Source: Nitrospirota bacterium
GTDB taxonomy: Bacteria; Nitrospirota; Nitrospiria; Nitrospirales; Nitrospiraceae
Reading direction: 5' to 3'
DNA: 64,000 nt
NCBI GenBank assembly: GCA_030684575.1
Contig: JAUXVD010000008.1
Span: 62,001-126,000 of the forward strand
The translations under genes and the position numbers were made by a program. The notes beneath the pieces were generated by a model that made no database searches, was not told where the DNA came from, and saw nothing but the letters and a program-made list of their open reading frames with translations. Below, piece after piece: positions 59,450-64,000 of the stretch. Each line of letters starts with the position of its first letter. The first letter of the stretch is position 1.

Positions 59450-59558
59450 CTGAATCGTTTCAGATTGAAGAATAGGAGCGTTTCGCCTCATGGCTCCTAG
59501 GATTCAAGCTCTCGGCAGGAGTATCGATGGCTTCAGGTCTGTATGTGATTGGGGATTT

Positions 59559-59604
59559 TGGTGGGCCGTGTAGGGGTTGAACCTACGGCCCGCTGATTAA
59601 GAGT
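59559..59604 (-). pseudogene. 3' fragment of tRNA-Lys(CTT), likely attR of a genomic island
   Basis: Read on the minus strand, 46 nt align with tRNA positions 31-76: CTCTTAA anticodon loop (anticodon CTT), TCAGC stem, T-arm GTAGG-TTCAACC-CCTAC, acceptor ACGGCCC, A73, and CCA (59561-59559). The 5' half is missing: upstream bases do not complete the cloverleaf. Integrases inserting into tRNA genes leave such duplicates; the intact gene should lie at the other end of the island, to the right. Confidence 0.88.
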
Positions 59605-59708: not shown

Positions 59709-59895
59709 CTAATTCGGTCGTTTGTGAAGAATTTGCGCACAAAATTAGCACATCACTTTTATGCTGCGTGTCCTGACCTACCCCCCCCGAATCGGGGAAA
59801 GACGGGCACTGGATTGAAGTTTTCTCGCCATTCTGAACGGCTGCATCCGACCCAAAGCCGAAGTACACGACCGACCGCTATCACAAGGGAGGGTC

Positions 59896-60046
59896 TTACG
59901 CCGATCCGCATAAGAACCAGTGATACATGGTCGATGGGTCGTAACGCATTGCACCACCGTCGATGATGGGATAATGTTCACGATCATTGAAAGTGTGTTA
60001 GGCGGATAGAAAATGGCAGATCCGGTTCTTATGCGGATCCGCCTAA
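59896..60046. repeat. 23-base inverted repeat left of the cassette
   Basis: 59896-59918 and 60024-60046 are reverse complements apart from two mismatches; the inner 16 bases (GGTTCTTATGCGGATC at 60024-60039) are perfect. An overlapping pair GTTAGGCGGAT (59997) / ATCCGCCTAAAC (60037) is of integron core-site type. Confidence 0.65.
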
Positions 60047-60051
60047 ACATT

Positions 60052-60058
60052 GTTAGGT
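60052..60058 (+). other. Integron-type core site (GTTRRRY), left end of cassette
   Basis: GTTAGGT matches GTTRRRY. With flanking bases, GTTAGGTGCCGA (60052-60063) is the perfect complement of TCGGCACCTAAC (62253-62264) at the right end of the cassette, as the circular-cassette model requires. Confidence 0.7.
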
Positions 60059-62311
60059 GCCGAGCGGGGTTGTCGTAGGTCATGAAGCTGACCAGCTTGT
60101 CCATTACAAACTACCGGGCGCTCAGGGACGTAGCGATTCCTTTGTCGGACTTCGGCTGCCTCATCGGAGAGAACAATTCAGGCAAGTCTTCCTTCTTGCA
60201 GGCTTTGTCTCTGTTCTTCTCTGGCACCAAGCTGGCGGTCAGCCACTTTTTCGATGATTCCAAACCTATCCGCATCGCGGTGACATTCGAAAATATTGGT
60301 GACGCAAACTTAGCGCGATTGGCTGCCGAACACCGCACCCGCGTTGCGGGAATCGTCAAGAATGGACGTCTTGTCCTTGTCAGGGCCTACGACACCGCTG
60401 GAAAGAGTTCGCTGCTGTACAACACTCTTACGCCGAATGACGCCAGATTCTCCGCAGACAGAATTGGCGCGCTCTTAAAGAGTCAGCGAGCAGGTCAGAC
60501 ATTCGTCAACAAGGTAGTGCAGACATTCCCGGAACTGGACGGCGTCGTCGATACGACCATGGATCAGGATGCCGTCAAGCAGAAGATTCAGGAATTTGCC
60601 GACTCATTACCCGACGATCAGAAGACTGCCACCGATCAGCCTTTGCCGACGGGGATCGACAAGAGCATCGAGCCGATGCTGCCTGACCCGATCTACATCC
60701 CGGCGGTGAAAGACCTTGCTGACGACATCAAGACAACCGAAAGCACCCCGTTCGGCAAAATCCTAGCCATCCTTCTGCAAGCCGTCGAGCCCAAGCTGCC
60801 AGATGCACAACGACTGTTTGAAGAACTCAACGCCAAGCTCAACCGCGTTCAACAGCCTGACGGAACGGTCGTGGATGGGCGGCTCGATGAGGTGAAGCTG
60901 ATCGAGTCTACTGTCGAGAAGTATGTCCGAGAGAGTTTTGCTGACGTGGCGCTCCGCATCGCAATCCCTCCGCCGGAGTTAAAGACCGTGTTCTCGGCCG
61001 CTCGCATCTACGCCAACGATGGCGTGGATGGTCTGATCGATTCCAAAGGCGACGGATTGCGTCGCGCAATTGTCTTCTCCATCCTGCGATCTTACGTCGA
61101 ACTCAAGGCGAAGCTCGCGCCCGTTGCGACGCTAGTTGAAGAACCGGCCCAGGCTACACCCGCCTCCGCATCCTACCTACTGTTGTTCGAAGAACCGGAG
61201 TTGTTCCTTCACCCCAAGGCCCAGCACATCCTCTTCGACGCCCTGCGGGTCTTCGCCGAGGAACACCACGTTATCGTCACTACCCATTCACCAATGTTCT
61301 TTGGCCCAGGGGCGACCGAAACGTTCGTTAAGCTGAGAAAGGTATCCGATCCGGCGCTCGCGCCTCGGCCGTTCACTCAGGTACAGCCGGTAGACCTGTC
61401 CGACATGACCGCCAAGGACCAGTTTCAGATCATCTGCTTCGAGAACAACAACGCCGCTTTCTTTGCCGATACCGTCGTCCTGGTCGAAGGCGATAGTGAT
61501 TATCTCCTCATGCCGCACATCGCCAGAACACTTGATCCCTCGTGGGATGTGGCGAAAGTGCCGATTGTGTTCGCTCGGATCACTGGTAAGGGCAACATCC
61601 GACGGTATCGAGAGTTCTTCAACAGGTTCGGGGTCCGAGTTCCGGTCATCGCCGACCTCGACCTGTTGGCCGTTGGCTTCGACCACATCGCCCCCAATGA
61701 TGCAGTCAGGACGGCCAAGGCCGATCTGCTGGCAAGGGTCGATGAGTTGATCGTGCCCGATGCGAACGGCCCATCTGCGTCGGACGCCAAAGACGCTCAT
61801 GATTCCGGCGAGCTACGTGGCTTGTGGCGGAGGGTCAGGGAGTTACAGGAGAAGCTCAAGGCCGGTACATGCTCCCAAGCAGAACATGATGCAGCTGTTG
61901 AGGCATTCTTCGCGTGGCAGCGGAAATCAGACCGGCTGGCTGTCATGAGTACCAGCACTGACGTGCAGATGATCCAGTTGAAGCACCGTCTGCTTGCAAT
62001 GCTTCGAACGGTCGACGTTTACGTGCTCGAACGTGGCGCGATAGAGCAGTACTACCCCGAAGCCACCACCGGAGCAGACAAGCCATCGCGTGCCCAGGAC
62101 TTCTGTGCCAAGGTTGCGACACGCGACGCGATCCTCGCCTGCTGCGGCGAGCAGACAGTCGACCGCGAGGGTACTCAGGAAAGCATCAAGGAGTTCGATC
62201 TCATTTTCCAAGGGATCTTTGGAGACCCCTGCGGGTGACGAAGCTGCGTCATTCGGCACCTAACAACAGCGTGCAGCGGACGGCGCTGCGCGCCGCCGCT
62301 GATGCTGAGCG
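60053..62311 (+). mobile_element. Putative integron gene cassette with OLD nuclease gene
   Basis: 2259 bp from G^TT of the left core to G^TT of the right attC-like site, carrying a single gene in the usual orientation. Unusually long for a cassette. No integrase gene lies in view. Confidence 0.68.
60082..62238 (+). CDS. OLD-family ATP-dependent nuclease (AAA ATPase + TOPRIM)
   Basis: 718 aa. ABC-like AAA ATPase: Walker A G29-E-N-N-S-G-K35-S, and signature/Walker B region LLLFEEPELFLHPKAQ with the switch HHVIVTTHSPMFF. The C-terminal TOPRIM domain has E469 in VLVEGDSDY and D525-L-D527. OLD proteins degrade DNA and several act in anti-phage defence (e.g. Gabija GajA, retron-linked nucleases). 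The neighbour is not a UvrD-like helicase, so this is not Gabija. Start ATG 60082 is only 29 bases inside the cassette, as usual for cassette genes. Confidence 0.9.
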   Translation: MKLTSLSITNYRALRDVAIPLSDFGCLIGENNSGKSSFLQALSLFFSGTKLAVSHFFDDSKPIRIAVTFENIGDANLARLAAEHRTRVAGIVKNGRLVLVRAYDTAGKSSLLYNTLTPNDARFSADRIGALLKSQRAGQTFVNKVVQTFPELDGVVDTTMDQDAVKQKIQEFADSLPDDQKTATDQPLPTGIDKSIEPMLPDPIYIPAVKDLADDIKTTESTPFGKILAILLQAVEPKLPDAQRLFEELNAKLNRVQQPDGTVVDGRLDEVKLIESTVEKYVRESFADVALRIAIPPPELKTVFSAARIYANDGVDGLIDSKGDGLRRAIVFSILRSYVELKAKLAPVATLVEEPAQATPASASYLLLFEEPELFLHPKAQHILFDALRVFAEEHHVIVTTHSPMFFGPGATETFVKLRKVSDPALAPRPFTQVQPVDLSDMTAKDQFQIICFENNNAAFFADTVVLVEGDSDYLLMPHIARTLDPSWDVAKVPIVFARITGKGNIRRYREFFNRFGVRVPVIADLDLLAVGFDHIAPNDAVRTAKADLLARVDELIVPDANGPSASDAKDAHDSGELRGLWRRVRELQEKLKAGTCSQAEHDAAVEAFFAWQRKSDRLAVMSTSTDVQMIQLKHRLLAMLRTVDVYVLERGAIEQYYPEATTGADKPSRAQDFCAKVATRDAILACCGEQTVDREGTQESIKEFDLIFQGIFGDPCG

Positions 62312-62317
62312 TTCGGC
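62258..62317 (+). other. attC (59-base element)-like recombination site
   Basis: 60 bp. R'' box ACCTAAC (62258-62264), R' box GTTCGGC (62311-62317). Between them a hairpin CAGCGG-A-CGGCGC / GCGCCG-CCGCTG with loop TGC and a single extra-helical A, the typical feature of attC folded strands. The R' box deviates from GTTRRRY by one base (C for R). Confidence 0.75.
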
Positions 62318-62480
62318 TCGTGAGATGCGTGCTGTGGCCAGGGCCCGACACGTGTAGCAGAAGCAAAGCTGCTGGGGGTGGGCCGCTGTGCAGACTTATT
62401 CTCGCAGATCCAGTAGCGTGGCCGGGTCTGACCCGCGTGTGGGTATCCCGTGATGTAAGTTTTGGGCGAAGGTACAGGGT

Positions 62481-64000
62481 ATGGCACGATACGACTTCAA
62501 ATCCCTCTCCAGCCAGGACTTCGAGGAGCTGATTCGCGATCTTTTGCAGGCGGAATGGAAGCTCGCGCTCGAAGCCTTCCGCAGCGGTCGTGATCATGGG
62601 ATCGACTTACGATATGCGTCGGCCGCCGGTGGCGCGACAATCATCCAGTGCAAGCACTACGCGGGCTCGGGGTTCGCCAAGCTGCTGGCGCATCTGCGCA
62701 ACGGCGAACTCCCGAAGGTCCGACGCTTGCGTCCGGCCCGTTATGTGGTAGCGACCTCTGTCAGTCTCACACCCGGCAACAAGGACGAAATCGTCACGGC
62801 GCTTCAGCCGTTCGTGTTGAGTGTTCGGGACGTTTTCGGCGCAGACGATATCGAAGGCCTGCTTAGCCGCCACGGGGACGTCGAGCGCGCCAACTTCAAA
62901 CTATGGCTCACCAGCACGAGCGTTCTCGATCGAGTGCTTCACAATGCTACGTTGTGCCAGACAGATTTCGAGATTGACCGCCTCCGGCGCAAGCTTCCTC
63001 TGTTCGTGAAGAGCGACGCCTACCCGCGTGCGACTGAGATCCTCAACCAGACCCGCATAGTCGTTGTGACAGGGCCTCCAGGGATCGGTAAGACCACGCT
63101 GGCCGAGATGCTCCTTTACGCGCATCTGGAAGACGGGTACGAACCGGTCGCGATCAAGGCGGAGATTGCTGAGGCGAAGGATCTCTTCAAATCCGCGCGC
63201 AGGCAAATCTTCTACTATGACGACTTCCTCGGCCAGACATTCTTGGGCGAACGCCGCGAATACCTTGGCAGAAATCAGGACACGGCGATGGTGGATTTCA
63301 TGGAGATGGTCCGCCGGTCGCCCCAGTCTCGGTTCATCCTCACGACGCGGGAACATATCCTGAGCGGCGCACTTCAGGTCTCGGAGCGGCTTGCCCACAG
63401 TCGGATTTTGGAGCATCGCTGCATCCTCGAGCTGGGCGACTATCCGTATGGCCACCGAGCCCGCCTTCTCTATAACCATCTCTATTTCAGCGACCTGCCA
63501 CTGGAGTACAAGAACGAAGTGCTGAAGGAGGACTTCTTTCTGGACATTATCAGGCACGAGCACTTCAATCCTAGACTGATCGAATGGCTGTCTGCGTATT
63601 CGCACCTGGGGCAGGTTCCCGCTCAGGGCTACAGGACGCACGTCTCGGCCCTGCTGGAGGCACCGGAGACCATCTGGGCCCACGCGTTCCGTCACCAGAT
63701 CTCGGACGCGGCGCGCCACGTCCTCCTTAGCTTCCACACGTTCGGCGAGTGGACAGACACGGTCGACCTCGAGCCGGCGTTCATCGCGCTCCACCGGCAC
63801 AATGCCGCCAAGTACCATCACCGGATCCGGGCGGGCGATTTCCATCGGGCGCTTCAGGAGCTGGAAGGCGCTTTTCTCTCATATAGAATGAGACACGCGA
63901 GTTATCTCAACCCCTCTGTTCGGGACTTTGTGGCCTCGGTAGTCAGCAACGAGCGCGAGACCGCCGAAGACCTTGTCAATTCGGCCGTGCGCTTCAAGCA
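62481..64000 (+). CDS. Mrr-type restriction endonuclease fused to STAND NTPase (3' truncated by window)
   Basis: Open for 506 codons with no stop before the window end. N-terminal restriction-endonuclease (Mrr-like, PD-(D/E)xK) domain: HGIDLRY with D42 and IIQCKHY with Q56/K58. P-loop ATPase (nSTAND3-like) with VVTGPPGIGKTTLAEM, K204 in Walker A, and Walker B-like IFYYDDF (D247, D248), then FILTTREHIL sensor. Such nuclease-STAND fusions are predicted phage sensors/effectors. The C-terminal sensor part lies beyond the window. Its position just after an attC-like site suggests it may begin another cassette. Confidence 0.85.
   Translation, partial: MARYDFKSLSSQDFEELIRDLLQAEWKLALEAFRSGRDHGIDLRYASAAGGATIIQCKHYAGSGFAKLLAHLRNGELPKVRRLRPARYVVATSVSLTPGNKDEIVTALQPFVLSVRDVFGADDIEGLLSRHGDVERANFKLWLTSTSVLDRVLHNATLCQTDFEIDRLRRKLPLFVKSDAYPRATEILNQTRIVVVTGPPGIGKTTLAEMLLYAHLEDGYEPVAIKAEIAEAKDLFKSARRQIFYYDDFLGQTFLGERREYLGRNQDTAMVDFMEMVRRSPQSRFILTTREHILSGALQVSERLAHSRILEHRCILELGDYPYGHRARLLYNHLYFSDLPLEYKNEVLKEDFFLDIIRHEHFNPRLIEWLSAYSHLGQVPAQGYRTHVSALLEAPETIWAHAFRHQISDAARHVLLSFHTFGEWTDTVDLEPAFIALHRHNAAKYHHRIRAGDFHRALQELEGAFLSYRMRHASYLNPSVRDFVASVVSNERETAEDLVNSAVRFK

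Follow-up and report, generated by a model that had tools for sequence, protein, structure and literature searches.

A probable integrase-less integron array carrying an OLD-family nuclease, within a family of attI platforms in Nitrospira genomes

Introduction

Is the gene for a large OLD-family nuclease in a Nitrospirota genome carried on an integron gene cassette, and if so, into what kind of integron was it inserted? In the usual picture of an integron, one attI lies beside one intI. We analyzed the window, a 64,000-nucleotide stretch of contig JAUXVD010000008.1 (positions 62,001 to 126,000; assembly GCA_030684575.1), and compared it with the genomes of 61 relatives. A sequence-only reading had proposed that an integrated gene cassette with its own attC lies near the end of the window. 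The features that we located are listed in Table 1; positions past the end of the window are given as window equivalents.

Table 1. Features of the locus, in window coordinates
Feature	Position	Strand	Basis or remark
Left island end: direct, partial repeat of the 3' part of tRNA-Lys(CTT)	59540..59604	+	65 bp, 90.8% identical to L011:13444-13508
Left end (LE), 37 bp: CGACCCAAAGCCGAAGTACACGACCGACCGCTATCA	59848..59884	+	Homology to G002 starts exactly at 59848; LE stands beside 39 attI copies
attI-type site, 162 bp, ending ...GGATCCGCCTAAACATTG^TT	59892..60053	+	Homology to intI-adjacent copies
Gene cassette 1 (OLD)	60053..62311	+	Bounded by two G^TT cuts, one at attI and one in its own attC (attC1)
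OLD-family ATPase/TOPRIM nuclease, 718 aa, intact	60082..62238	+	Pfam, PADLOC, motifs
attC1, 60 bp	62258..62317	+	R'' ACCTAAC, imperfect hairpin, R' GTTCGGC
Gene cassette 2	62311..64000, on to ~65049 past the window	+	attC2 at 64997-65055; right end at 65049-65118
PDC-S73 candidate defence protein, 770 aa	62481..64000, ending at window-equivalent 64793	+	PADLOC, Pfam
Whole tRNA-Lys (right end of island)	window-equivalent 69463-69538 (L011:13463-13538)

Results

The OLD gene is bounded as a gene cassette

The OLD gene is framed by an inverted repeat (GTTAGGTGCCGA at 60052-60063 and TCGGCACCTAAC at 62253-62264). A repeat search gave 14-nt arms that are 100% complementary, and the 12-mer of the arm occurs in two places only in the whole 3.79-Mb genome, both of them here. 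The ends are thus as perfectly complementary as first proposed. The stretch opens with a G^TTRRRY-type boundary (GTTAGGTG at 60052-60059) and has an attC at its far end, as a gene cassette does. A cassette-long inverted repeat is expected and is no separate oddity, because it corresponds to the R''/R' of the circular attC, restored. When the cassette is circular, the repeat makes up the outer stem of the attC (−33.7 kcal/mol, z = −7.6 vs shuffles). Across 21 other single-cassette units, the reverse complement of a cassette's own R'' flank matched its start better than the flanks of other cassettes did (bases 8-14; 3.8 of 7 vs 2.0), and none of 10,000 permutations was as high.

The 718-aa open reading frame matched AAA_15 (8.5e-37) and OLD-like_TOPRIM (8.6e-16) in Pfam and Old (2.2e-89) in PADLOC. 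We observed a Walker A motif (GENNSGKS, residue 29), a Walker B motif (LLLFEEPE, 366) and two TOPRIM motifs (LVEGDSD, 467; ADLDLL, 524), and the closest solved sequence is that of an OLD-family nuclease (6p74). The next gene encodes a PDC-S73 protein, and there is no UvrD-like GajB partner. These data agree with the earlier assignment of an OLD nuclease to the cassette and identify the protein as a predicted class 1 OLD nuclease and candidate anti-phage protein. Among the 61 relatives, an OLD of this kind was found in the window genome and in one other genome only (Nitrospira sp. GL140_5, G002), where the reading frame is also intact (dN 0.0098, dS 0.0235).

Two attC sites match a covariance model

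The 60-bp attC1 forms an imperfect hairpin whichever strand is folded. Its R' departs once from GTTRRRY and is part of the next cassette. The R''/R' boxes and hairpin described in the sequence-only reading were upheld, but not its single extra-helical base: two are bulged out of the central stem when the + strand is folded.

A simple scanner for R''/R' boxes and folds was dropped in favor of a covariance model, because it gave false matches within coding sequence and missed attC2. The model was built from 21 aligned attC sites of other loci, with the window genome and its sister copy left out. Covariation in this alignment exceeded that of shuffled and slid controls (0.299 observed vs 0.080 shuffled, 0 of 500). 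A covariance scan had been put forward as the check on the cassette, with absence of a match at 62258-62317 counting against it; the model matched 62262-62313 (26.1 bits, E = 0.05 genome-wide for this small model). A further attC was to be looked for past position 64,000, and attC2 was found there at 64997-65055 (29.6 bits; R'' off consensus). Across the whole 3.79-Mb genome the model gave seven matches at E < 5. Six lie where the array structure predicts: attC1, attC2, three beside right ends on contig C4 and one on C14, ~0.8 kb downstream of an attI. The seventh is close to the end of C1. The folds, the covariation and the model matches together indicate the conserved secondary structure of attC sites.

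A second cassette is followed by a conserved right end

The gene downstream of attC1 matched PDC-S73 in PADLOC (1.9e-155 for the part in the window, 8e-156 for the full reading frame), and Pfam places an Mrr_cat nuclease domain and an nSTAND3 NTPase domain in it. In most units that we collected, the last cassette is followed by a conserved 70-bp right end. The GTT that opens this right end belongs to R' of the last attC, and an attC-like site lies upstream of it in most of 60 units. In the window genome it lies at 65049-65118 and is 97% identical to that of G002; with an attC-like site upstream, 62311-65049 is therefore a second cassette. The unit first proposed (cassette, attC and OLD gene) stands, but its extent was too short: an attI lies in front, and a second cassette and the right end follow.

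Among the 61 relatives, PDC-S73 was found in the window genome and, as a fragment, in G017 only. The G017 locus (C15, L145:1509-2080) has a truncated cassette, with the 3' part, an intact attC2, the right end and an orthologous right flank (91% identical). Because G017 keeps the 3' end of cassette 2 and the order fits integron polarity, PDC-S73 looks like the older resident, and the OLD cassette, which adjoins attI, like the newer one.

The unit recurs in a second species with other flanks

In G002 (locus L105), the left end, attI and OLD cassette are 98.6% identical to those of the window (59848-62313, 2466 bp), with flanks on both sides that are unrelated. The backbones of the two genomes are 86% identical (a gene compared), which argues that the unit moved recently between species. 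The OLD cassette of G002 runs straight into the right end; the PDC-S73 cassette, which sits in the window genome exactly between these two, is missing. It therefore appears independently movable, and we read the difference between the genomes as one cassette gained or lost at GTT boundaries.

Taken alone, an inverted repeat of 12-14 bp and a single hairpin are weak evidence, and both could arise by chance around an ordinary chromosomal OLD gene. This explanation is refuted by the covariance match, the second attC, the conserved right end, the attI homology described below and the same unit in G002 with other flanks, and we give it virtually no weight. The gene cassette with attC proposed from the sequence is genuine, as judged from the covariance match, the attI homology and the relative's copy in other surroundings.

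The cassette adjoins an attI-type site

We searched the 604 bp upstream of the OLD cassette across the genus and found a recurring block that ends exactly at the cassette GTT. The 206 bp immediately upstream (59848-60053) consist of the left end and the attI-type site, which contains an inverted repeat (59896-59918 / 60024-60046). The 162-bp block was present in 27 of the 61 relatives and 24 of the 32 genus genomes, at one to eight copies each. Its copies end in ...CTAAACAT(T/A)GTT or close variants, and the sequence beyond the GTT differs from copy to copy. At five loci (G016, G044, Nitrospira CR1.3 (L107), ACE_NIT12 (L124) and N. defluvii NC_groundwater_1100 (L137)) the block lies ~19 bp 3' of a match to a true integron integrase, at constant spacing. 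In true Nitrospirota integrons (L023, L025, L107, L124, L137), intI reads toward attI and the cassettes, which is the reverse orientation, and attI follows after ~19 bp. Among the relatives' genomes, IntI scored above the cut-off in G016, G019 and G044 only. The simple site at the attI end of the window reads ...CCTAAACATTG^TTA and is similar to the class 1 attI end, ...CCTAAAACAAAG^TTA.

IntI is able to use relaxed secondary sites, and the OLD cassette could have been inserted at such a non-attI site, with the conserved upstream block having no role in recombination. We rejected this explanation as highly improbable because the block recurs beside intI: it adjoins intI in five loci and precedes cassettes in dozens, always ending in GTT.

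Most attI copies stand without an integrase

We collected ~109 attI copies (a few duplicates possible), five beside intI and the rest without. At least 39 are solo copies with the common 37-bp left end in the place of intI, and 46 have a right end within reach. An exact pattern of the attI core was found in 76 further stretches of named genomes, nearly all Nitrospira and including the N. defluvii chromosome. It also occurs in bins labelled Ca. Peribacteraceae (L119) and Actinomycetota (L134), reflecting either mis-binning or transfer beyond Nitrospirota. A left end of ~36-37 bp was also seen with no adjoining attI (L043:4922, L049:868, L058:5614).

The window genome holds five attI copies, on C8 (the window), C4 (two), C14 and C19. 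No intI was found in this genome, which is 99.84% complete (best TIGR02249 match 77 bits vs a cut-off of 265). A complete integron in this genome was therefore rejected: an attI is present by homology, but intI is absent, so the window locus is not part of a complete integron. The two attC sites without intI place the locus among CALIN. For an array promoter, the sole promoter-like match in the upstream block (59987-60014) did not rise above chance (1 match against 0.5 expected).

Equivalent platforms carry different cassettes

G031 resembles the window genome from the tRNA-Lys arm through the left end and attI up to the GTT (82% over 511 bp) and again at the right end (89%), whereas the interior is wholly unlike. 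Between attI and a single attC, G031 carries LmuA, a 162-aa open reading frame and LmuB, a complete Lamassu system (C234, L059:2190-6050). Because the sole attC stands at the end, this system is apparently one three-gene cassette of 3.9 kb. Loci L088 and L078 share attI (88%) and the right flank (84% over 2 kb) but differ in their cassettes. L069 and L116 have the same first cassette (96.5%), and the difference begins after its attC.

We compared 57 distinct reading frames from ~44 units with PADLOC. The families matched at E < 1e-8 included Old, PDC-S73, LmuA, LmuB (two), PDC-S32 and AbiU; weaker matches were MADS-like. Contig C4 of the window genome (L043:2853-11431) holds a series of units, with two platforms, one carrying AbiU/AIPR and one PDC-S32 (AbiJ_NTD4-like). 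Short repeats of the form TGGCCG-ATGGCAGTCCT-CGACCC and TGGCCG-TTCTTCGACCATCGGTATC-CGACCC join successive units, after the right end or before the left end (L043, L050, L053, L088 and others).

These observations bear on the origin of the solo copies. By plain decay, each solo attI array would be an independent remnant of an integron that had lost intI, an ordinary CALIN on an immobile platform with no use in trans. The genus does have intI-attI integrons with homologous attI, some attI copies are partial, and the locus is a CALIN by the two-attC definition of IntegronFinder 2 (PMC9024848). The solo copies with an identical-type left end where intI would be are at least 39, which argues against independent deletions. 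As many as eight copies in one genome, different cassettes at orthologous platforms and the recent move of the OLD unit between species also speak against decay, which we consider unlikely.

The unit lies in a tRNA-Lys island

The attI unit is cargo of an island of ~10 kb at tRNA-Lys, from 59540 to window-equivalent 69538 (L011:3540-13538). A gene for a 353-aa tyrosine integrase (Phage_integrase) lies beside the tRNA, and Rep_trans and RadC genes lie inside. Rep_trans is a replication initiator family known too from filamentous phages and rolling-circle elements. Similar tRNA-Lys arms were seen in most genus genomes.

Discussion

We conclude, with a probability of roughly 0.85, that the locus is an integron array of two cassettes that lacks an integrase, and that it belongs to a family of attI platforms dispersed across Nitrospira genomes. 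The array runs from the left end and attI (59848-60053) through the OLD cassette (60053-62311) and the PDC-S73 cassette (62311 to ~65049) to the right end (to 65118). The points against this reading are the absent integrase, the off-consensus R' of attC1 and R'' of attC2, and the E value of 0.05 for attC1.

Cassettes would be captured by recombination between attI and attC, with IntI acting in trans, either lost since or supplied by other strains. A promoter within the attI block or ahead of it may drive transcription of the cassettes near attI, and OLD and PDC-S73 may protect against phages. The whole unit would move as a block between loci and genomes, partly on islands such as the tRNA-Lys element and partly by a further step whose breakpoints are its two ends. 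Such movement at the two ends would be distinct from the integron reaction; the candidates are transposition in the manner of a MITE and homologous recombination between the conserved ends. Both remain because the ends are sharp but mosaic, and because no empty element, clean unoccupied site or target duplication was established.

In the first case, left end, attI and right end would form a non-autonomous MITE-like element that includes attI, with some transposase moving it and cassettes as cargo, an explanation that is compatible with our main reading. Left ends start and right ends stop sharply between unrelated flanks, the element would measure ~276 bp without cargo, copies are both dispersed and tandem, and by eye the left end shows a weak, imperfect inverted similarity to the right end. 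Against this, no empty element (left end, attI and right end with no cargo) was found among the units collected, no target duplication among the units compared, and no transposase. The recurring classes of flanking sequence and the platforms at orthologous loci instead suggest fixed sites with swapping by homologous recombination. We regard the MITE-like element as somewhat unlikely. A transposon with perfect terminal inverted repeats was unsupported: around both ends, short repeats form mosaics that fall into recurring classes.

Beyond the integrase-less array itself, we tentatively propose a distributed integron, at odds a little short of even. Many integrase-less attI platforms would load and exchange large defence cassettes, up to operons, through the IntI of a few strains acting in trans, and would spread as units of left end, attI and right end and on tRNA islands. 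Solo attI far outnumber integrases, at 1-8 per genome, and equivalent places carry different cassettes, with several defence systems among them. If IntI uses the platforms in trans, integron cargo could be taken up simultaneously at many sites, both in the chromosome and on mobile islands. Such platforms would escape common annotation, which reports attC clusters only. Little is known of how the nitrifiers of the genus Nitrospira defend themselves against phages, and our data give a first detailed description of their integrons.

The sequence-only reading had considered a defence gene on a cassette noteworthy. The defence cassette is borne out, but it is not noteworthy in itself, as integron-borne anti-phage defence has been published (Darracq 2025, Getz 2025 and Kieffer 2025, according to their citation in PMC12444791). 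More unexpected is that attI platforms without an integrase form a dispersed family. Within the phylum Nitrospira, IntegronFinder 2 reported two CALIN, both of them carried by Ca. N. inopinata, and attI sites outside class 1 are poorly described (PMC9024848). Genus-wide, multi-copy attI platforms without an integrase appear to be new: the literature searched describes neither solo nor multi-copy attI platforms, which is no proof, as subscription papers lay mostly outside the search.

The predicted nuclease resembles class 1 OLD nucleases in having an N-terminal ABC-type ATPase and a C-terminal TOPRIM domain within one protein. It differs in that its gene is on a cassette and its 718 aa exceed the length of the solved OLD (528 aa). 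In reverse chromosomal integrons (e.g., Treponema), intI has the orientation of the cassettes. The intI-bearing relatives share this arrangement, with attI just 3' of intI and cassettes in the same direction, whereas the window locus has no intI. As in a CALIN, two attC sites lie 2.7 kb apart in one orientation without intI. The term CALIN is silent on attI, which is recognizable here; the locus also has a conserved sequence at each end and is one of many such platforms in a genome.

Two MITE copies enclose the integron in the case of integron mobilization units and of class 1 integrons flanked by MITEs (e.g., PMC3934969, PMC13367494). Both there and here, integron parts would move as a block by way of elements without a transposase of their own. 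In the loci described here, by contrast, the point of insertion at attI lies between the two conserved ends, and no transposase was identified. The integrons of the three 2025 studies, sedentary or mobile, are reportedly served by an integrase. The loci described here share with them anti-phage genes carried as cassettes; judged from the titles of those studies, they differ in that a solo attI platform, in Nitrospirota, carries large cassettes, one or two in number (2.3 and 2.7 kb in the window genome, 3.9 kb for the complete Lamassu of G031).
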